DNA of 64,000 nucleotides. It comes from Bacteroidota bacterium (GTDB lineage Bacteria; Bacteroidota; JABWAT01). The stretch spans positions 1 to 64,000 of the forward strand of contig JAKLJL010000012.1 in NCBI GenBank assembly GCA_023151185.1, written 5' to 3'. Positions 8,504 through 17,642 of this stretch are shown here, in pieces (position 1 is the stretch's first letter; each line of letters opens with the position of its first letter). The position numbers and the translations under genes were made by a program. The notes under the pieces are model-generated. The model worked only from the letters and a program-made list of their open reading frames with translations, was not told the DNA's origin and did not search any database.

Positions 8504-9493
8504 ATGAAAACTGCCGTTATCGGGGTGGGCCACCTCGGGAAACTTCATTCGAAAATGTATGCCCGGCTTCCTGAGTCTGACTTTGCCGGGGTGTACGATG
8601 TGAATCAGGAGGCAGCCCGCCAGGTCGCTGCCGATTTTAACATCCGTGCGTTTACCAGTCTGGATGAAGCCATCGCCTCGGCCGATGCGTTCAGTGTCGT
8701 AACGTCGACACCCTATCATTTTGCTGTCGCCCGCCAGATTATTTCGGCAGGGAAACCGGTATTCATTGAAAAGCCGATTACAACCACTCCTGATGAAGCC
8801 AGGCAACTGATTGCCCTTGCCCGTGAGAAAAAGGTGGCCCTGCAGGTGGGGCATATCGAACGGTTCAATCCGGCGATTCTCTCCGTCGAAAAATACGACC
8901 TCCGTCCGATGTTTATTGAATCTCACCGGCTGGCCCAGTTCAAGCTGCGGGGGGCAGATGTGGCGGTGGTTCTCGATCTGATGATTCATGATATCGACAT
9001 TATCCTGCATCTTGTCGGGTCGCCGGTTAAACGGGTGGATGCCAACGGGGTCGGGATCGTTTCGGGCACGATTGATATTGCCAATGCCCGGCTTCAGTTC
9101 GAAAACGGCTGTGTCGCCAATGTGACCGCCTCACGGATTTCGCAGCATCCCATGAGAAAAATGAGAATCTTCCAGAAAAACGCCTATCTGGCGGTAGATT
9201 TTTCTGCCGGAAGCTGTGATGTTTTCCGCATTGCCGATCCGGATGAACCCGAAACAACGCCGGCTCTCATGCTCGGGCAGATCGATGTGGGCCCGGTCAG
9301 CCGGAATATTGTCTACGAGCAGCCCGAAGTTAAAGAGGTAAATGCCCTCGAATATGAACTGTCTCTTTTCCTGAATTCCATCCTGACCGGTTCTGAGCCG
9401 CCGGTTACCGGTGAAGACGGACTCAGGGCCCTTGAAATTGCCCAGGAAATTATCTCCCAGATCGAAAATAACCTGAAATCACTCACCGATTAA
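8504..9493 (+). CDS. Gfo/Idh/MocA family NAD(P)-dependent oxidoreductase
   Basis: The 329 residues show an N-terminal Rossmann fold (AVIGVGHLGKLHSKMYA, residues 3-19) and the family signature GKPVFIEKPITTT with the conserved EKP lysine near residue 90, then the C-terminal alpha/beta dimerisation domain including DLMIHDIDIILHLVG. Family members oxidise or reduce sugar hydroxyls. Position third in an LPS operon and the motif GHIERFNPA recall the UDP-GlcNAc 3-dehydrogenase GnnA used for amide-linked (GlcN3N) lipid A in some bacteria, but no GnnB aminotransferase is present here, so this is only a suggestion. A good terminator follows. Confidence 0.85.
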   Translation: MKTAVIGVGHLGKLHSKMYARLPESDFAGVYDVNQEAARQVAADFNIRAFTSLDEAIASADAFSVVTSTPYHFAVARQIISAGKPVFIEKPITTTPDEARQLIALAREKKVALQVGHIERFNPAILSVEKYDLRPMFIESHRLAQFKLRGADVAVVLDLMIHDIDIILHLVGSPVKRVDANGVGIVSGTIDIANARLQFENGCVANVTASRISQHPMRKMRIFQKNAYLAVDFSAGSCDVFRIADPDEPETTPALMLGQIDVGPVSRNIVYEQPEVKEVNALEYELSLFLNSILTGSEPPVTGEDGLRALEIAQEIISQIENNLKSLTD

Positions 9494-9506
9494 CCCTCCG
9501 GAACTC

Positions 9507-9543
9507 AAAAAACAGGGAATTCTGCTCCGGAATCCCTGTTTTT
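9507..9543 (+). terminator. Rho-independent terminator of the LPS operon
   Basis: AAAAAACAGGG (9507-9517) pairs with CCCTGTTTTT (9534-9543), with an inner ATTC/GAAT extension and one bulged base, ending in a T run. It separates the LPS genes from the ligase cluster. Confidence 0.8.
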
Positions 9544-9554
9544 CAGCAGGAATC

Positions 9555-9585
9555 TTGAATTATTCCTTATGAACTGATAATATTC
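9555..9585 (+). promoter_or_regulatory. Candidate promoter of the ligase cluster (TTG-N20-TAATATTC)
   Basis: TTG at 9555-9557 is followed after exactly 20 bases by TAATATTC (9578-9585). This keeps the Bacteroidetes -33/-7 spacing seen at better matches elsewhere in the window, although the second half of the -7 element is imperfect (4 of 6 fixed positions). It lies 31 bases before the start codon at 9617 and just after a terminator. Confidence 0.5.
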
Positions 9586-9616
9586 CCGCTGTTTTTTCAC
9601 CTTCCGGAGACCATCC

Positions 9617-10573
9617 ATGAAAACAGTCGGAATTCTTTTCGGCATGGAAAATTCCTTTCCTTATGCCCTTGCGGATCATATCAATAAACTGAACCGGAAA
9701 GACCTCAGGGCAGAACTGGTCCGGGTGGGCCACCAGACCATGAGTACCGGACTTCCCTATGACATCATCATTGACCGGATTTCGCATGATGTCCCGTTTT
9801 ACCGGTCCATGCTTAAAAATGCAGCACTGACCGGATCTTATGTGATCAATAATCCGTTCTGGTGGAGTGCAGATGATAAGTTTATTGATTGTACTCTGGC
9901 AGAAAAAGTAGGTGTGGCGGTTCCAAGAACCGTCCTGATTCCCAGTAAAGAAAGACCCTGGAACACACAGGAAAGTTCTTTCCGGAATCTGACCTATCCG
10001 CTCGACTGGGAATCTGTTTTTTCCTGGATCGGCTTCCCGATGTACATGAAACCGTACGATGGCGGCGGTTGGCGTGATGTATTTAAAATCAATGACCGGG
10101 ATGAGTTTTGGCGGATTTATGAAACAACCGGTCAGACGGTCATGATGCTTCAGGAAAACATTGAATTCGATTCCTATTACCGGTGTTACGGCGTAGGAAG
10201 AAAGTATGTTCACATCATGCCCTATGAGCCCAGAAATCCGCACCACCTGAGGTACCAGACCGGTGATGATGCCCTGACCCCGAAACTTCAGAAGCGGATT
10301 GAGGGGGATGTCCTGAAGCTGTGCCGGGTGCTGGGGTATGACCTGAATACGGTTGAATTTGCGGTCAGGGACGGGATTCCCTATGCCATTGATTTTATGA
10401 ATCCGGCCCCGGATGCAGACATCAAATCAGTTACAGTTCCCAATTTCGAGTGGATCATTAAAACCATGACCGATTTCCTGATTGAGTTGGTTGAAACAGA
10501 TGCCAAACCGGACTATCCGGCACCGTTTCAGAACTGGTTTGATCAGAACCGGCCGGTGAAAAAGAAAAAATAA
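9617..10573 (+). CDS. ATP-grasp ligase (RimK/glutathione-synthase-like)
   Basis: A 318-residue protein with ATP-grasp architecture: a pre-ATP-grasp domain (residues 1-95, starting TVGILFGMENSFPYALADHIN), the nucleotide-binding core with the conserved lysine strand FPMYMKPYDGGGWRDVFKI near residue 140, the hinge segment MMLQENIEF, and the metal-binding end VEFAVRDGIPYAIDFMNPAPD. Such enzymes activate a carboxylate as acyl phosphate and join it to an amine. It is the first gene of a cluster with a GCS2-type amidoligase and a permuted ATP-grasp protein, so it probably makes a peptide-like metabolite or tag. The substrates are unknown. The start follows from the ATG at 9617, at the beginning of the conserved region. 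Confidence 0.8.
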   Translation: MKTVGILFGMENSFPYALADHINKLNRKDLRAELVRVGHQTMSTGLPYDIIIDRISHDVPFYRSMLKNAALTGSYVINNPFWWSADDKFIDCTLAEKVGVAVPRTVLIPSKERPWNTQESSFRNLTYPLDWESVFSWIGFPMYMKPYDGGGWRDVFKINDRDEFWRIYETTGQTVMMLQENIEFDSYYRCYGVGRKYVHIMPYEPRNPHHLRYQTGDDALTPKLQKRIEGDVLKLCRVLGYDLNTVEFAVRDGIPYAIDFMNPAPDADIKSVTVPNFEWIIKTMTDFLIELVETDAKPDYPAPFQNWFDQNRPVKKKK

Positions 10574-10612
10574 CAGTCTGTGCAGAAGCGGTGAACAGAA
10601 GGAGGACATTTT

Positions 10613-11752
10613 ATGTCAGGAACTTTTCCACAACGGCCTGATTTTACACTGGGAATTGAAGAAGAGTTTATGATTGTCGACCGGCAGACCGGCGATTTGA
10701 AGTCGAGTATTTCAGAGATTTTTGAAGACGGCAGAATGATTCTTCAGGAAAAAATAAAGCCCGAAATGCACATGTCGGTGGTCGAGGTTGGCACCCATAT
10801 CTGCAAAACCACCGCCGAAGCCCGTCAGGAAATACTCACTTTACGCTCAGAAATTGCCAAACTTGCCAAAAAACAGGGTCTGGAAATTGCTGCATCGGGA
10901 ACACATCCGTTCTCTCACTGGAAAGATCAGGAAATCCATCCGGATATCCGGTATCTCAAAATTGTGGAGGATATGCAGATCATCGCCCGGTCGAATCTGA
11001 TCTTTGGCCTTCATGTCCATGTCGGGATTTCGGATAAACAGACGGCCATTGAGATTATGAATGAAGTCCGGTATTTCCTGCCTCATATTCTGGCCCTGTC
11101 TTCGAACAGTCCGTTCTGGATCGGGAGAAAAACCGGCCTGATGAGTTACCGCACGAAGGTGTTCGACAAATTCCCCAGGACCGGTATCCCCGATTACTTC
11201 CCGACTCATTTCGATTTTTCGAACTATATCGACACTCTGATCAAGGTAAACTCGATTGATAATGCAAAAAAAATCTGGTGGGACGTCCGTCCGCACCCGT
11301 TTTTCCCGACCCTGGAATTTCGAATCGCCGATGTTCAGATGCGGGTGGATGAAACCATTGCACTTGCTGCCCTTATTCAGTCCATCTGCCTGACCCTGTG
11401 GAAAATGCGGACGAAAAACACCGGCTGGCGGTTGTACCGGCGCGATCTGATCATGGAAAACAAATGGCGTGCTGCCCGGTACGGCATCCGGGGGAATATG
11501 ATCGACTTCGGTAAGAACATGGAAGTTCCCACGATTGAACTTTTGTATGAACTGATTGAACTGGTTGCCGACTCGGCAGATGAACTGGGCTGCCGCCGGG
11601 ATCTCATGTACATCCATAAAATGATTTCGAACGGAACCGGAGCAGAACGGCAGATCCGGGTATTTGAAGATTCTGGCGGAAATTTCGAAAAACTGGTCAG
11701 TTATATCGTGGATGAAACCCATCTTGGCCTCGACCTGGGGGCTGGTGCATGA
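10613..11752 (+). CDS. Carboxylate-amine ligase, GCS2/YbdK family
   Basis: The 379-residue product begins FTLGIEEEFMIVDRQTGDL, the conserved metal/ATP-binding start of the GCS2 (glutamate-cysteine ligase type 2, COG2170) amidoligase family, and has TAEARQEILTLR, GTHPFSHWKDQEI, LIFGLHVHVG and FRIADVQMRVDE motifs in the expected order. YbdK itself has weak gamma-glutamyl-cysteine ligase activity in vitro; in gene clusters with ATP-grasp proteins this family is thought to make peptide-like metabolites. The start is set by an excellent ribosome-binding site (AAGGAGGA ending eight bases before ATG), the strongest in this operon. It overlaps the next gene by four bases (ATGA). Confidence 0.92.
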   Translation: MSGTFPQRPDFTLGIEEEFMIVDRQTGDLKSSISEIFEDGRMILQEKIKPEMHMSVVEVGTHICKTTAEARQEILTLRSEIAKLAKKQGLEIAASGTHPFSHWKDQEIHPDIRYLKIVEDMQIIARSNLIFGLHVHVGISDKQTAIEIMNEVRYFLPHILALSSNSPFWIGRKTGLMSYRTKVFDKFPRTGIPDYFPTHFDFSNYIDTLIKVNSIDNAKKIWWDVRPHPFFPTLEFRIADVQMRVDETIALAALIQSICLTLWKMRTKNTGWRLYRRDLIMENKWRAARYGIRGNMIDFGKNMEVPTIELLYELIELVADSADELGCRRDLMYIHKMISNGTGAERQIRVFEDSGGNFEKLVSYIVDETHLGLDLGAGA

Positions 11753-12939
11753 TTCCCGGAAATCGGAAGGAATTCAATCAGTTCTGGACGGATCACCGGT
11801 ATCAGCAGTTTCTGCACCGGCTCGAGGTCTCACTCGGACTGATGCCCGGGTTTCACATCTGTGAAACTCCGCTGTTCTTTCCCGCAGGCCTGACTGCCAG
11901 GCTCAGGCAGGCAGGCGAAGAATTAGTCAGCCAGGCGCTGTCACAGGAAGTTCACTCCCGAACCGGAAGGTCTGTCCCTGAAAACTGGCGGGTCCCCGGT
12001 GACGAGGGAATTCCCCATTTTATTCAGGTAGATTTTGCACTGACCGGCGATCCGGCTGACCCGGAGCCCCGCCTGATTGAATTGCAGGGGTTCCCGACAG
12101 TCTATGCCTTTCAGACAGAACTGGCCCGTCAGTATCGCCAGTTTGCCGGGTTCCCGGGTCTTCATTACCTGCCCGATCCTGAAACCGATGATCAGGATTA
12201 TTTTGCTCTCCTGCGGCAGGTGATCGTTGGTAAGGAAGATCCGGCCGAAACCATTTTACTCGAAATTGATCCGCTTCAGCAAAAAACCTATATCGACTTT
12301 TACCTGACCCAAAAACACACGGGAATTTCAATCGTGAACGTCCGGGATCTGATCCGGCGGGGAAATAAGTATTTTTACCGTCGTGACGGCCGGGAAACCG
12401 GAATTAAACGGATTTACAACCGGCTGATTTTTGACGAGTATGAACGGAAGCAGGTGATCAGCCAGGCCGACTTCAGAACGATGGATTCGGTTGACTGGGT
12501 GACCCATCCGAACTGGTATTACCGGATTTCAAAATTTATACTTCCGTTTCTGAACCACCCGTCCGTTCCGGGTGCCTGGTTTCTGCATGAGGCACCGGCT
12601 GATCTCGATTACCGGAATTATGTCCTTAAACCCCTGTTTTCCTTTGCGGGAACCGGTGTCCTGGTGGATGTGACCCGTCAGGATATTGACAGAATTCCGC
12701 CAGATCTGAGACAGGATTTTATTCTTCAGGAAAAGGTGACCTATGCCCCGGTTCTGCAGACGCCGGATGAGCCTGCCCGGGCTGAAATCCGGGTAATGTT
12801 TCTCTGGGACGGAACCCGGCACCGGTGTGTGAATATGCTGGCCCGGATCAGCAAGGGGAAAATGATGGGGGTCGATTTCAACAAAAATAAAACCTGGGTG
12901 GGTTCTTCGGCCATCCTGTTTGAAACCGGGAGTCACTGA
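11749..12939 (+). CDS. Circularly permuted ATP-grasp-like ligase, uncharacterised
   Basis: I recognise the fold rather than a named gene. Near residue 85 the frame reads HFIQVDFALTGD then RLIELQGFPT, which corresponds to the D...G..LIE-N strand that comes early in circularly permuted ATP-grasp proteins such as glutathionylspermidine-synthase relatives. A Rossmann-like part follows (TILLEIDPLQQKTYIDFYL; GIKRIYNRLIFDEY). The nucleotide-binding half comes last: NYVLKPLFSFAGTGVLV with a lysine strand and glycine loop, DFILQEKV, and EIRVMFLWDG. The 396-residue length fits. It overlaps the GCS2 ligase (4 bases) and the next gene (1 base), so it very likely works in the same pathway. No signal peptide is seen. 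Substrate unknown. Confidence 0.65.
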   Translation: MIPGNRKEFNQFWTDHRYQQFLHRLEVSLGLMPGFHICETPLFFPAGLTARLRQAGEELVSQALSQEVHSRTGRSVPENWRVPGDEGIPHFIQVDFALTGDPADPEPRLIELQGFPTVYAFQTELARQYRQFAGFPGLHYLPDPETDDQDYFALLRQVIVGKEDPAETILLEIDPLQQKTYIDFYLTQKHTGISIVNVRDLIRRGNKYFYRRDGRETGIKRIYNRLIFDEYERKQVISQADFRTMDSVDWVTHPNWYYRISKFILPFLNHPSVPGAWFLHEAPADLDYRNYVLKPLFSFAGTGVLVDVTRQDIDRIPPDLRQDFILQEKVTYAPVLQTPDEPARAEIRVMFLWDGTRHRCVNMLARISKGKMMGVDFNKNKTWVGSSAILFETGSH

Positions 12940-13355
12940 TGCCTTCACCTGTCCGGCTTTTTTTCTGGTCCCTGTGGGAATTTCCGCATGTTCTGGCCGG
13001 TGCCGTTCTGTATTTGGTTTACCGGAAATCAGACCGGAAAGTCTGGCAGAATAACCGGCTCTTCATCCGGGCAACGGGTTTTTCGGTTTCTCTCGGGTGG
13101 TTTATTTTCTGGACTGATGAGACACCGCTGGATGGGTCTGCCTCCCCAACCGTTCTGCATCATGAATTTGGGCATTCAGTCCAGTCAAGGAGGCTGGGTC
13201 CGGGGTATTTGGTTGTGGTCGGGATTCCCTCTGCCCTCCGGAATTTTTACGGCCGGATGTACTGGAGAAAATACCGCCGGAGCTGGGGTTCGTATTACGC
13301 CGGATTCCCAGAAAACCAGGCTGACCGGCTGGGAAAAACTTTCCCCGGAATCTGA
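12939..13355 (+). CDS. Small membrane protein with HExxH metalloprotease motif
   Basis: A 138-residue protein with two N-terminal hydrophobic segments (about residues 5-25 and 42-60), then TVLHHEFGHSVQSRRLGP, where HEFGH fits the zinc-binding HExxH pattern, a hydrophobic stretch YLVVVGIPSALRNF, and a C-terminal FPENQADRLG motif whose glutamate could be a third zinc ligand. Similar short proteins with the same HEFGH...QSRxLGP...ADRLG layout occur in Bacteroidetes, without an established function as far as I know. The start codon shares one base with the stop of the permuted ATP-grasp gene, so it is translationally coupled to the ligase cluster. A peptidase role is inference. Confidence 0.65.
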   Translation: MPSPVRLFFWSLWEFPHVLAGAVLYLVYRKSDRKVWQNNRLFIRATGFSVSLGWFIFWTDETPLDGSASPTVLHHEFGHSVQSRRLGPGYLVVVGIPSALRNFYGRMYWRKYRRSWGSYYAGFPENQADRLGKTFPGI

Positions 13356-13414
13356 CTTGCCGGCTTGTTCGGTCTGCTAACCTAATCCTAATACAAAAAT
13401 CCCTGCCAATTCCT

Positions 13415-13422
13415 TACCTTTA
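13415..13422 (+). promoter_or_regulatory. Candidate -7 promoter element TACCTTTA
   Basis: TACCTTTA fits TAnnTTTR and lies 28 bases before the ATG at 13451. No TTG is found at the expected -33 distance, so the call is weaker than at the full promoters. The same octamer appears before two other genes in this window (23891 and 62312). Confidence 0.4.
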
Positions 13423-13450
13423 GGTTTCCTTATCCGCAAGCAGGTGATTT

Positions 13451-15511
13451 ATGCTCGAATCCTTTTTCAAACCCAAAGGTGTGGCTGTTGTCGGGGCTTC
13501 CCGTGATCCCCATAAACTGGGATACGGCGTTGTCAGAAATCTTTCTGAATACCGGTATAAAGGGGCTGTTTACCCGGTTAACGCCTCAGCTACAGAAATT
13601 TTGGGGTTTCCCTGTTTCGCTTCCGTCAGCCTGGTACCCGATCCGGTAGATCTGGCCATCCTTGTAGTTCCGGCAGATCAGGTTCCGGCGATGGTTGAGC
13701 AGTGCGGTAAACGGGGAATCCGTCATATAATTGTGACTTCCGGCGGGTTTTCTGAAACCGGTCCGGAGGGTAAACTTCGGGAACAGCAGCTTAAACAGGT
13801 AGCCGACCGGTATGGAATCCGGCTGGTGGGGCCAAATTGTGTCGGGTCGATCGACACCCATACCCCGCTGAACACCACCTTTGTGGTCGGGATGCCGGCA
13901 CAGGGGGATATTGGGCTGACTTCACAGTCGGGAGCTATGGTTGCTGCCGTCATAGACTGGGCACGGGGAACCGGAATCGGTTTTTCCAGGCTGATCAGTC
14001 TCGGGAATCAATCAGATGTAACTGAACGGGAAATGATTGCCTCAATGATTTCGGATCCGCATACGAAAGTGATTACGGCCTATGTGGAAGGCGTTTCTGA
14101 CGGACGGGAATTTATGGCAGTGGCCGAAGAAGCTGCCCGGAAAAAGCCACTGATCGTCCTGAAAGGCGGAACCGGAGAAGGAGGAGCCCGGGCCGTTGCC
14201 TCTCATACCGGATCACTTGCCGGAAGTGCTGAAGCCTATCAGGCTGCCTTTGCCCGGTCGGGAGTTCTGACGGCTTCGACAATGGAAGAAATGTTCGACT
14301 GGGCCCGGGCTCTGGCCTGGCAGCCCCTTCCGAAAGGAAACCGGATCGGTGTTCTGACCAATGCCGGCGGACCTGCCATCCTGGCGGTTGATGCACTTGA
14401 AGCCGCCGGACTCCGTCTGGCCCAACTGACAGACGAAACCAAATCCCACCTCCGTCCAAGAATTCCGGCAGCAGGAAGTGTGAATAACCCGGTAGATGTT
14501 CTGGCCGGATCAGGGCCTGCAACTTATGCACTGGCTCTTGATGCTCTGCTTTCGGATCCGACTGTGGATGCTGCGGTGGTAATTCAAGCGCCGCAGGACT
14601 GGTTTCTGGCTGAATCTCTGGCCGAAGTGATCGGTGAAGTTGCCGCCAATCATAAAAAACCGGTTCTGGCTGCCATTATGGGAATGGCAACTGTTCAGAA
14701 GGCACTCGAAATTCTCCACCGGAAAAAAGTCCCCAATTTCTCTTTCCCTGAAAGAATGGCCTCAACCCTTAAGGCAATGCTGACCAGAAGGAACTGGCTC
14801 GACGGGCACCAGGACCCACCTGCAGTCATTACCGGTGTTGATCACCTTGAAGCCCAGCAGGCACTTCAAAATCAGGACTTCAGCCGCCTTCTGGCTGCTT
14901 ATGGCATCCGGTTTCCGAAAACAAAGCCGGTGGCTGATGCAAAAACCGCAGCCCTGATGGCAGCCGAAATCGGGTTCCCGGTTGTCATGAAACTGGATTC
15001 CCCCGATTTCAGCCACAAATCGGATGTCGGCGGGGTTCTGCTGAATCTGAAGTCGGCAGAGGAGGTGACCCAGGCTTTTGAAACCATTACCCAAATGGCC
15101 CGCATGATAAAACCCGATGCCCGGATTTCAGGAGTTCTGATTCAAAAAATGATGCCGAAAGGCCATGAAATTTTAGTTGGGATGAAACAGGATGCCCAGT
15201 TTGGTCCGCTGGTTGTTGCCGGGACAGGCGGAGTTGAAGTTGAACTGATCCGGGATGTGGCTTCGGCGATAGCTCCGTTATCTCATCAGCAGGCGGCTGA
15301 ACTGCTCAGTAAAACCATTGCCGGCCGGCGTCTGAACGGCTGGCGGAACATTCAGCCCGGCGACTGGAATGCTGTTACCGAGGTGATTGTCCGGCTGGCC
15401 CAGATCGGGGTCGATTTTCCGGAAATCCGGGAACTGGAAATTAATCCGGTATTGGTTCTGGACCCCGGAAACGGAGCCTGGGCGCTGGACGTCAGGGGAG
15501 TGGTTCAGTGA
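13451..15511 (+). CDS. Acetate/acyl-CoA ligase, ADP-forming (alpha-beta fusion)
   Basis: The 686-residue protein contains both subunits of ADP-forming acetyl-CoA synthetase. Residues 1-130 are a CoA-binding Rossmann domain (GVAVVGASRDPHKLGYGVVRNL), residues 140-455 are succinyl-CoA-synthetase-like domains with the catalytic histidine in ASHTGSLAGS, and residues 475-686 are an ATP-grasp domain (ETI..., MMPKGHEILVGMKQD, ELEINPVLVL). It reversibly makes ATP, acetate or another acid and CoA from acyl-CoA, ADP and phosphate, useful for energy conservation from amino acids or pyruvate. There is no GNAT domain, so it is not the Pat type. The gene stands alone and overlaps the convergent gene by seven bases. 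Confidence 0.92.
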   Translation: MLESFFKPKGVAVVGASRDPHKLGYGVVRNLSEYRYKGAVYPVNASATEILGFPCFASVSLVPDPVDLAILVVPADQVPAMVEQCGKRGIRHIIVTSGGFSETGPEGKLREQQLKQVADRYGIRLVGPNCVGSIDTHTPLNTTFVVGMPAQGDIGLTSQSGAMVAAVIDWARGTGIGFSRLISLGNQSDVTEREMIASMISDPHTKVITAYVEGVSDGREFMAVAEEAARKKPLIVLKGGTGEGGARAVASHTGSLAGSAEAYQAAFARSGVLTASTMEEMFDWARALAWQPLPKGNRIGVLTNAGGPAILAVDALEAAGLRLAQLTDETKSHLRPRIPAAGSVNNPVDVLAGSGPATYALALDALLSDPTVDAAVVIQAPQDWFLAESLAEVIGEVAANHKKPVLAAIMGMATVQKALEILHRKKVPNFSFPERMASTLKAMLTRRNWLDGHQDPPAVITGVDHLEAQQALQNQDFSRLLAAYGIRFPKTKPVADAKTAALMAAEIGFPVVMKLDSPDFSHKSDVGGVLLNLKSAEEVTQAFETITQMARMIKPDARISGVLIQKMMPKGHEILVGMKQDAQFGPLVVAGTGGVEVELIRDVASAIAPLSHQQAAELLSKTIAGRRLNGWRNIQPGDWNAVTEVIVRLAQIGVDFPEIRELEINPVLVLDPGNGAWALDVRGVVQ

Positions 15512-16104: not shown

Positions 16105-17544
16105 TTACTTTTTTTCCTGAGAAACCCGGCTGGCAAGGATTTGTCCTGAAATCTGACGGATCAGGTCCAGAACTTCCCGTAAATACGGTTCAGTCAGAGT
16201 TGTCTGCCCGGTTACCAGTCTGAGTGTCAGTTTCCCGTTCAGGGTTGTGTGGCTCAGATAGACTTTGCCTGACTGGTTCAGGGTCTGAAGAATTTCATCA
16301 TTCAGGTCATTTTCTTCGGGAACCGAAAGTCCGGGCTGGGTGAACCGGAAACACAGCAGATTCAAAGTCCGCGGTGCCATCCAGTCAACCGAAGGCCAGG
16401 TTTTCAGCTCAGACTCGGCCAGTTCGGCCAGCCGGATATGATTCCGGATGATGTCCCGCAACCCGTTAACCCCGAATGACCGGATAACCCACCACAGTTT
16501 CAGGGCCCGGAACCGCCTTCCAAGCTGAATGCTCCAGTCAGAATAATTATTTACCCTGCCGTGCGATTTGGTTCTGAGGTAATCGGGCAGAACCGACATG
16601 ACATTAACCAGATGGTCCGGATCCCGGACAAAAAAAGCTGAGCAGTCAAAATGGGTGAGCATCCATTTGTGCGGATTGAACACATAACTGTCTGCCAGAT
16701 CAAGTCCGGCCGCAAGCGGTCTGAACTCGGGTAAAAGAAAGGCAGTCCCGGCATAAGCTGCATCCACATGGAGCCAGAGGCCGTAAGTTTTGCAGATCCG
16801 GCCAATCTCCGGCAGCGGGTCAAATGCCGTTGTCCCGGTCGTCCCCAGAGTTGCAATGACCGCACAGGGCAAAAACCCCTTTTCAAGATCTTCACGGATC
16901 GCCGCTTCAAGTTCAGCAGGATCCAGAGAAAAATCCGCACGTACAGAAATTTTCCGGAAACCGGTTTTCCCAAGCCCGGCAATCCGGACAGCCTTTTCTG
17001 CTGAAGAATGGGTTTGGGTTGAGGCGTAAACCATCAGCTTTTTGGCGGAGCCACCGGTTTCGGCAACCTGAAAACCGGATGCTTTTTCCCGGGCACATAA
17101 AACTGCCATCAGTGTGGCAGATGAGGCACTGTCCTGAATAACCCCCTGAAAGTCACCGGGAAGCCCGGTCATATCCCGAAGCCATCCCATAACTGCCTGT
17201 TCAAGCTCAGTTGCAGCAGGCGAGGTTTCCCAGAGCATGCACTGGGCACCCAGCGCAGAGGTTACCATTTCGGCAAGAACCGACGGGTAACTGGTATTGG
17301 CCGGGAAATAGGCCATGAAACCCGGATGCTGCCAATGTGTGATCCCGGGCAGCAGGATGGATCCGAAATCCCTGAAAATGGTTTCGCTGTCTGTACCAGA
17401 TTCTGGTGGCAGACCGGGAAGTGCAGACAGGATTTCACCCGGCTGAACCCGGGCTTTTACCGGGAAGTCTGTTACCTGTTCGAAATAATCGGCCATCCAG
17501 TCGGCGGTCTGGTGGGCCATTTTTCTGAATTCCTGTGGCGTCAT
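16105..17544 (-). CDS. Aromatic-L-amino-acid/group II PLP decarboxylase
   Basis: A 479-residue pyridoxal-phosphate decarboxylase. Family markers in order are HWQHPGFMAYFPAN (substrate pocket), THSSAEKA with the cofactor-stacking histidine near 179, LWLHVDAAYAG with D261 that pairs with the PLP ring nitrogen, and VFNPHKWMLTHFDCS with the Schiff-base lysine K293. These fit the aromatic amino acid decarboxylase group (DOPA, tryptophan or tyrosine decarboxylases). Substrate choice cannot be fixed from sequence. The ATG at 17544 is used; the TTG 33 bases upstream lacks support. It is monocistronic, and a divergent SRPBCC-MarR pair lies upstream. Confidence 0.9.
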   Translation of the reverse strand: MTPQEFRKMAHQTADWMADYFEQVTDFPVKARVQPGEILSALPGLPPESGTDSETIFRDFGSILLPGITHWQHPGFMAYFPANTSYPSVLAEMVTSALGAQCMLWETSPAATELEQAVMGWLRDMTGLPGDFQGVIQDSASSATLMAVLCAREKASGFQVAETGGSAKKLMVYASTQTHSSAEKAVRIAGLGKTGFRKISVRADFSLDPAELEAAIREDLEKGFLPCAVIATLGTTGTTAFDPLPEIGRICKTYGLWLHVDAAYAGTAFLLPEFRPLAAGLDLADSYVFNPHKWMLTHFDCSAFFVRDPDHLVNVMSVLPDYLRTKSHGRVNNYSDWSIQLGRRFRALKLWWVIRSFGVNGLRDIIRNHIRLAELAESELKTWPSVDWMAPRTLNLLCFRFTQPGLSVPEENDLNDEILQTLNQSGKVYLSHTTLNGKLTLRLVTGQTTLTEPYLREVLDLIRQISGQILASRVSQEKK

Positions 17545-17642
17545 GGCGGGTCCTGATCTGTCTGATTGGGTCTGCAATAATATCCGGCTGGTTCATCTGA
17601 TGCAAAACAAGTCGGCAAAAACGGGCAGAAAATATAATATAA

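Follow-up and report, generated by a model that had tools for sequence, protein, structure and literature searches.

Do three different amide-bond ligases encoded in a row act in one pathway, and does the small membrane protein encoded behind them belong to it? The question is raised by a locus in a Bacteroidota bacterium (assembly GCA_023151185.1, contig JAKLJL010000012.1, positions 1-64,000); this whole stretch of 64,000 nt is the window analysed here, and all coordinates are window positions. The four open reading frames claimed in a first-pass annotation are all present, and all lie on the + strand. The features are as follows.

9508-9548, + strand: terminator-like hairpin with a T run (RNA fold, -17.3 kcal/mol, z -4.4 against shuffles)
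9617-10573, + strand: gene 1, putative ATP-grasp amide ligase, 318 aa (weak HMM match and predicted structure)
10613-11752, + strand: gene 2, predicted GCS2/YbdK carboxylate-amine ligase, 379 aa (profile and structure-sequence matches)
11749-12939, + strand: gene 3, predicted circularly permuted ATP-grasp ligase with the YgiC/GspS/eukaryotic glutathione-synthetase fold, 396 aa (predicted structure)
12939-13355, + strand: gene 4, small HEFGH membrane protein, 138 aa (open reading frame; 1-bp overlap with the gene 3 stop)

A 39-bp gap separates genes 1 and 2, genes 2 and 3 overlap by 4 bp, and genes 3 and 4 by 1 bp. The operon starts where it had been claimed to start, with the hairpin setting the trio of ligase genes apart from upstream sugar/LPS-type genes, namely a Gfo/Idh/MocA-type oxidoreductase, a KDO-transferase-like gene, and a heptosyltransferase-like gene. 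On the other side, a CoA ligase gene (13451-15511) begins 95 bp downstream of the HEFGH gene. Matches in a promoter scan were no more numerous than in shuffles. We rejected a defence system, as PADLOC returned no match among the window proteins.

Fold assignment of the three ligases

By a weak HMM match combined with structure prediction, the product of gene 1 is an ATP-grasp protein. It falls under the cut-off of the RimK family TIGR00768 (E 1.5e-7, 31.1 bits against a cut-off of 143.4), and the closest fold to its AlphaFold model (pLDDT 84) is RimK (7qyr, Z 22.5), with LysX/ArgX at Z 20.8-20.9. Mean column identity is 66% over 18 sampled relatives. Gene 2, judged by its sequence matches, is a clear member of the GCS2/YbdK ligases, with a hit to Pfam PF04107 over the whole domain (E 5.4e-64, 217 bits against a cut-off of 21), a match to the YbdK structure 1r8g (9.8e-49) and, in likeness to YbdK-type GCS2 ligases, a score above the NF010039 cut-off (521 against 371 bits). 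The acidic metal-binding motif E16-E17-E18 as well as H134 and H136 are present in 68 of 68 aligned members. E. coli YbdK is not known to be part of any three-ligase operon.

For gene 3, profile searches against Pfam and NCBIfam gave nothing above cut-off (best, CP_ATPgrasp_1 with E 0.15; no GSP_synth match). Its AlphaFold model (pLDDT 90) matches YgiC (7uk8) with Z 28.4 and an rmsd of 3.2 over 340 of 396 residues, and further full-length matches are YjfC (Z 28.4), the GspS (Gss) synthetase domain (Z 26.9), and eukaryotic glutathione synthetases (Z about 24), while ordinary ATP-grasps match the second part alone, with Z near 8. Alignment to YgiC by hhalign (E 5.6e-5) covers a stretch holding both ATP-site lysines. 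The structure thereby upholds the permuted ATP-grasp fold that had been claimed for this protein and places it in the GspS/YgiC fold class. No plasmid copies of gene 3 were found.

The likeness of gene 3 to YgiC/YjfC and the GspS synthetase domain extends over the whole-length fold and the ATP/Mg-site Asp, Glu, and both Lys. The R-x-D...E-x-N motif is retained only in part: D95, E111, K262, and K294 are kept, as mapped via the motif and hhalign and not via superposed coordinates, and together with Q113 they occur in 91 of 91 aligned members. However, identity to YgiC/GspS is about 14%, the metal-binding Asn of these enzymes is an invariant Gln (Q113) in the gene 3 family, and the Arg that precedes the metal-binding, catalytic Asp in YgiC, Gss, and fungal Cp1B is replaced at position 93 by Q, A, V, T, or I. 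Because this Arg is absent and the Asn is exchanged for Gln, the substrate of gene 3 is likely different from that of YgiC/GspS.

YgiC and YjfC are peptide-spermidine ligases according to Pederick et al. 2023, as cited in PMC12568646, and the RefSeq product name of YgiC, peptide-spermidine ligase, agrees. Gene 3 lacks the amidase domain of GspS, and its partner genes differ from that of YgiC (ygiB in E. coli). Cp1B, which joins epoxysuccinate to an amino acid in fungal E-64 biosynthesis (PMC12568646), is of the same fold class (Z 22.0) and is likewise a standalone ATP-grasp; it is one of several ligases that act step by step, and it yields a pseudo-dipeptide, but it is partnered by an oxygenase and an adenylating amide synthetase instead of a GCS2 and a RimK-like ligase. 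The use of a permuted ATP-grasp is shared with the COG2307/COG2308 system, in which it accompanies alpha-E and transglutaminase/NTN-peptidase proteins. The permuted family there is a different one, however, and neither alpha-E nor transglutaminase is among the identified recurrent partners of the trio; the flanking genes in the window encode an oxidoreductase and a CoA ligase.

Recurrence of the trio and the place of the HEFGH gene

In a sample of 60 genomes (the window's own, congeners, and others of the same phylum), gene 3 is present in 15, once as a fragment, and gene 1 in 19. Gene 1 is carried by 18 of the 59 relatives, and all 13 relatives that carry a full gene 3 are among them (Fisher p 2e-9, with relatedness ignored). 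A contig scan of GTDB species yielded gene 3 relatives in number at least 596; the 80 best matches, the 13 loci of the relatives, and the window itself make up a set of 94 loci, with at least one duplicate among them (L027 and L061 are one contig). In 60 of the 94, genes 1, 2, and 3 share a strand and fit into 6.5 kb, and their order is 1-2-3 throughout; this count is not an unbiased rate, because the 80 loci were picked by likeness to gene 3, close relatives included. The hosts belong to Bacteroidota, Ignavibacteriota/Chlorobiota, and Acidobacteriota, with Chitinophaga, Pedobacter, Mucilaginibacter, and Rufibacter among those named. Gene distances are correlated, most closely between the GCS2 gene and gene 3 (r 0.90) and at about 0.7 between gene 1 and the others. 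With 60 of 94 loci and one invariant order, the three-gene set recurs far beyond chance, and the earlier description of three different amide ligases in one operon is borne out.

The HEFGH gene behaves differently. It adjoins the trio in 1 of the 60 trio loci, which is this window alone. Its orthologs in the three nearest genomes (G001, G002, and G003; 51-55% identity) retain the HEFGH motif, none stands beside a trio, and two of these genomes are without genes 1 and 3. Finding the genes together nowhere else was to count against the first-pass annotation: this does not apply to the trio, which recurs in 60 loci, but it does apply to the four-gene set, seen in this one. Searches against Pfam and NCBIfam gave nothing above cut-off for gene 4, the best Pfam match being M36 (E 0.027, under cut-off).

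In the congener G002, both flanking blocks, one to the left of the trio and one beyond the HEFGH gene on the right, show synteny with the window, yet about 330 kb separates them (L155 and L156), so the neighbourhood seen here is peculiar to the window's genome. The segment holding the trio and the HEFGH gene, with window edges at 9493-9617 and 13355-13451, has the appearance of a rearrangement breakpoint or an insertion. Given the single adjacency in 60 loci and the unlinked orthologs in the three nearest relatives, the HEFGH protein is probably an accidental neighbour outside the conserved system, though its gene may be co-transcribed with the trio in this strain.

That all four genes form one functional unit, as had been supposed, would draw on the fourth start codon overlapping the third stop codon by 1 bp in this genome; set against the solitary adjacency, the unlinked orthologs, two of them in genomes devoid of genes 1 and 3, and the separated flanking blocks of the congener, we regard it as highly improbable. 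The role of exporter, trimmer, or sensor proposed for the HEFGH protein is likewise not borne out, with the conserved accessories being an esterase and either of two hydrolases, all absent here. Elsewhere in the same genome, an RHS-repeat-type protein (L024, G000:C6:34319-37462) carries near its end a metallopeptidase-like stretch (HEYGHYIQS...VGIPS) that resembles gene 4 and is possibly a toxin-type tip.

An exchangeable hydrolase slot

An alpha/beta esterase precedes gene 1 on the same strand in 49 of the 60 trio loci, and a divergent EstD-like esterase is also found in about a third of them (esterase profile PF00756). Between genes 2 and 3 lies a slot that is occupied by a class-I-GATase-like protein (PF00117) in 33 loci, by an M29-aminopeptidase-like protein (PF02073) in 15, and by neither in 12; the two hydrolases never occur together in the slot. 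On a tree of the concatenated ligases, these three states need at least five changes, and the sister Ignavibacteria loci L058 and L081 have different occupants; the slot has been switched several times. The GATase-I-like catalytic triad is intact (C105, H208, and E210 in 52 of 52), and the candidate metal residues of the M29-like family (H-x-D) are present in 15 of 15. The linked amidoligase clusters surveyed by Iyer, Aravind and colleagues in 2009 reportedly include peptidases of unrelated folds. The window's operon lacks both the upstream esterase and the slot hydrolase, and single-query searches, which distant relatives could escape, found no relative of either hydrolase in its own genome.

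A hydrolase of either type thus stands beside the ligases in 48 of 60 loci, an arrangement that would suit protein or peptide tagging, in which the ligases add amino acids to protein side chains or termini and the slot hydrolase removes the tag. RimK acts in this way on ribosomal protein S6, and RimK/ArgX, which modify proteins or carrier proteins, are closest in fold to gene 1. Nevertheless, gene 1 scores 31 bits where membership in the RimK family requires 143, the cluster holds no conserved gene for a small carrier, a tag, or a target, and esterases are more typical of small-molecule metabolism, all of which makes tagging unlikely.

The intact GATase-I-like triad would also fit a catabolic role. 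PuuD is a gamma-glutamyl hydrolase with the class-I-GATase fold, and, by analogy with the PuuA-PuuD route for putrescine, an amine or amino acid could be gamma-glutamylated by the GCS2 enzyme and then processed, with the GATase-I-like protein as the gamma-glutamyl hydrolase; in a few genomes the permuted ligase is also found beside an amidohydrolase. We hold this to be very unlikely, since three ATP-consuming ligases are costly for a catabolic route, no recurrent dehydrogenase, aminotransferase, or transporter was recognised in the cluster, and 12 of the 60 loci, the window among them, are without the slot hydrolase. A RiPP reading was rejected, as most of the intergenic gaps leave no room for a precursor-peptide gene and none that is conserved was seen in the cluster.

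Several loci depart from the usual layout. In L146 (G013), gene 1 is followed by a permuted ATP-grasp of another family (CP_ATPgrasp_2, 37 bits with a cut-off at 32) and then by genes for a GATase-I-like protein, an esterase, and a protein of the ATP-grasp_4 type. L150 (G021) is arranged in much the same way, judging from the lengths of its ORFs and from how their sequences begin. Here gene 1, the GATase-I-like protein, and the esterase are common while the other ligases are exchanged, so the set behaves as a modular biosynthetic cassette. A second family context is seen in L035, L036, L037, L101, L103, and L121, where the permuted ligase has no GCS2 partner and lies close to an Amidohydro_3-type protein; in L101, L103, and L121, a GATase-I-like protein is encoded between the two. 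In L147 (G026:C6, 7703-10185), the gene immediately after a lone gene-1-type ATP-grasp encodes an aromatic amino acid lyase (PF00221, E 2e-196).

A candidate pathway to an amide-linked metabolite

Over tagging and catabolism, we favour the reading that the three ligases form a pathway, independent of the ribosome and of NRPSs, to one small amide-linked (pseudo)peptide, and we consider this probable. Behind it stand a fold class for each ligase, assigned from sequence or predicted structure, conserved catalytic and metal residues, and a gene order held across phyla. The reading is favoured because the order is invariant in 60 loci of several phyla, because gene 3 occurs only with gene 1 in the 59 relatives, and because gene distances are correlated and gaps or overlaps between the genes are short. 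It is further supported by active-site residues that are invariant in the GCS2 protein, gene 3, the GATase-I triad, and the M29-like family, and by the characterised fold relatives of gene 3, which form amides. Joint action is less sure for all genomes, because genes 1 and 3 are far apart in several.

Precedent points the same way. Operonic linkage of distinct ATP-grasp ligases, or of these with COOH-NH2 ligases, had been seen earlier according to the CDC123/R2K ATP-grasp paper, which states that such linked ligases often perform successive ligations in the biosynthesis of peptide metabolites (PMC4431377). The tie to the amidoligase clusters of Iyer and Aravind that had been proposed for this locus holds in that adjacent ATP-grasp and COOH-NH2 ligases characterise both (Mol BioSyst 2009, as referred to in PMC4431377). 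At least two different amide ligases stand in a conserved operon with one order in 60 of the 94 loci. Keyword searches of the searchable literature, a scope outside which the Iyer et al. 2009 survey lies, returned no account of the three-ligase set. Linked ATP-grasp/COOH-NH2 ligase operons are already known, and the three-ligase combination is a widespread variant of them.

In the proposed pathway, each ligase would use ATP to activate a carboxylate as an acyl phosphate and then join an amine to form the amide. The RimK/ArgX-like and GCS2 enzymes might build a glutamyl-type di- or tripeptide, whose free carboxylate the YgiC/GspS-like enzyme of gene 3 could cap with an amine, an amino acid, or a polyamine. 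Against a YgiC/GspS-type substrate at this step stand the loss of the Arg before the Asp and the change of Asn to Gln. The cysteine (GATase-I-like) or metallo (M29-like) hydrolase of the relatives would trim the product or remove a protecting-group amino acid, and the alpha/beta esterase found in most relatives may have either a precursor or the final compound as its substrate; the window's organism would have only the minimal three-ligase version. With three ligases, as many as three kinds of bond are possible, but the number of bonds in the product does not follow from this, so the earlier proposal of an oligopeptide with at least three bonds was too strong.

A more specific product is a tentative and rather doubtful suggestion: the fixed three-ligase core would make an amine- or polyamine-capped glutamyl peptide, a functional analogue of glutathionylspermidine, and such peptides would be a widespread, uncharacterised class of metabolites in Bacteroidota, Ignavibacteriota/Chlorobiota, and Acidobacteriota. 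A protecting residue would be taken off by one or the other of two unrelated hydrolases that alternate in one gene slot. For this organism, we rejected spermidine as the amine, with no SpeE/spermidine-synthase family protein matched in its own genome and the carboxynorspermidine decarboxylase NspC under cut-off (40.6 against 409 bits). Rejected as an amine supplier was also the aromatic-amino-acid-type decarboxylase at 16105-17577, whose synteny with the CoA ligase is also seen in G002, a genome without genes 1 and 3. A glutathione-type thiol replacing bacillithiol was discarded as well, BshC being present in 60 of 60 relatives whether the trio is present or absent.

The permuted ligase has many relatives (at least 596 matches among species genomes), and most of the best-matching loci examined share the three-ligase core, which is present in culturable Chitinophaga, Pedobacter, and Mucilaginibacter and includes one enzyme that Pfam leaves unnamed. 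With GATase-I-like and M29-like proteins alternating in one slot, a common trimming step is predicted and the reaction order can be put to the test. Should the pathway lead to a single compound, this would be a common metabolite of major soil and sediment bacteria, and the enzymes of the trio would be new standalone amide-bond catalysts.
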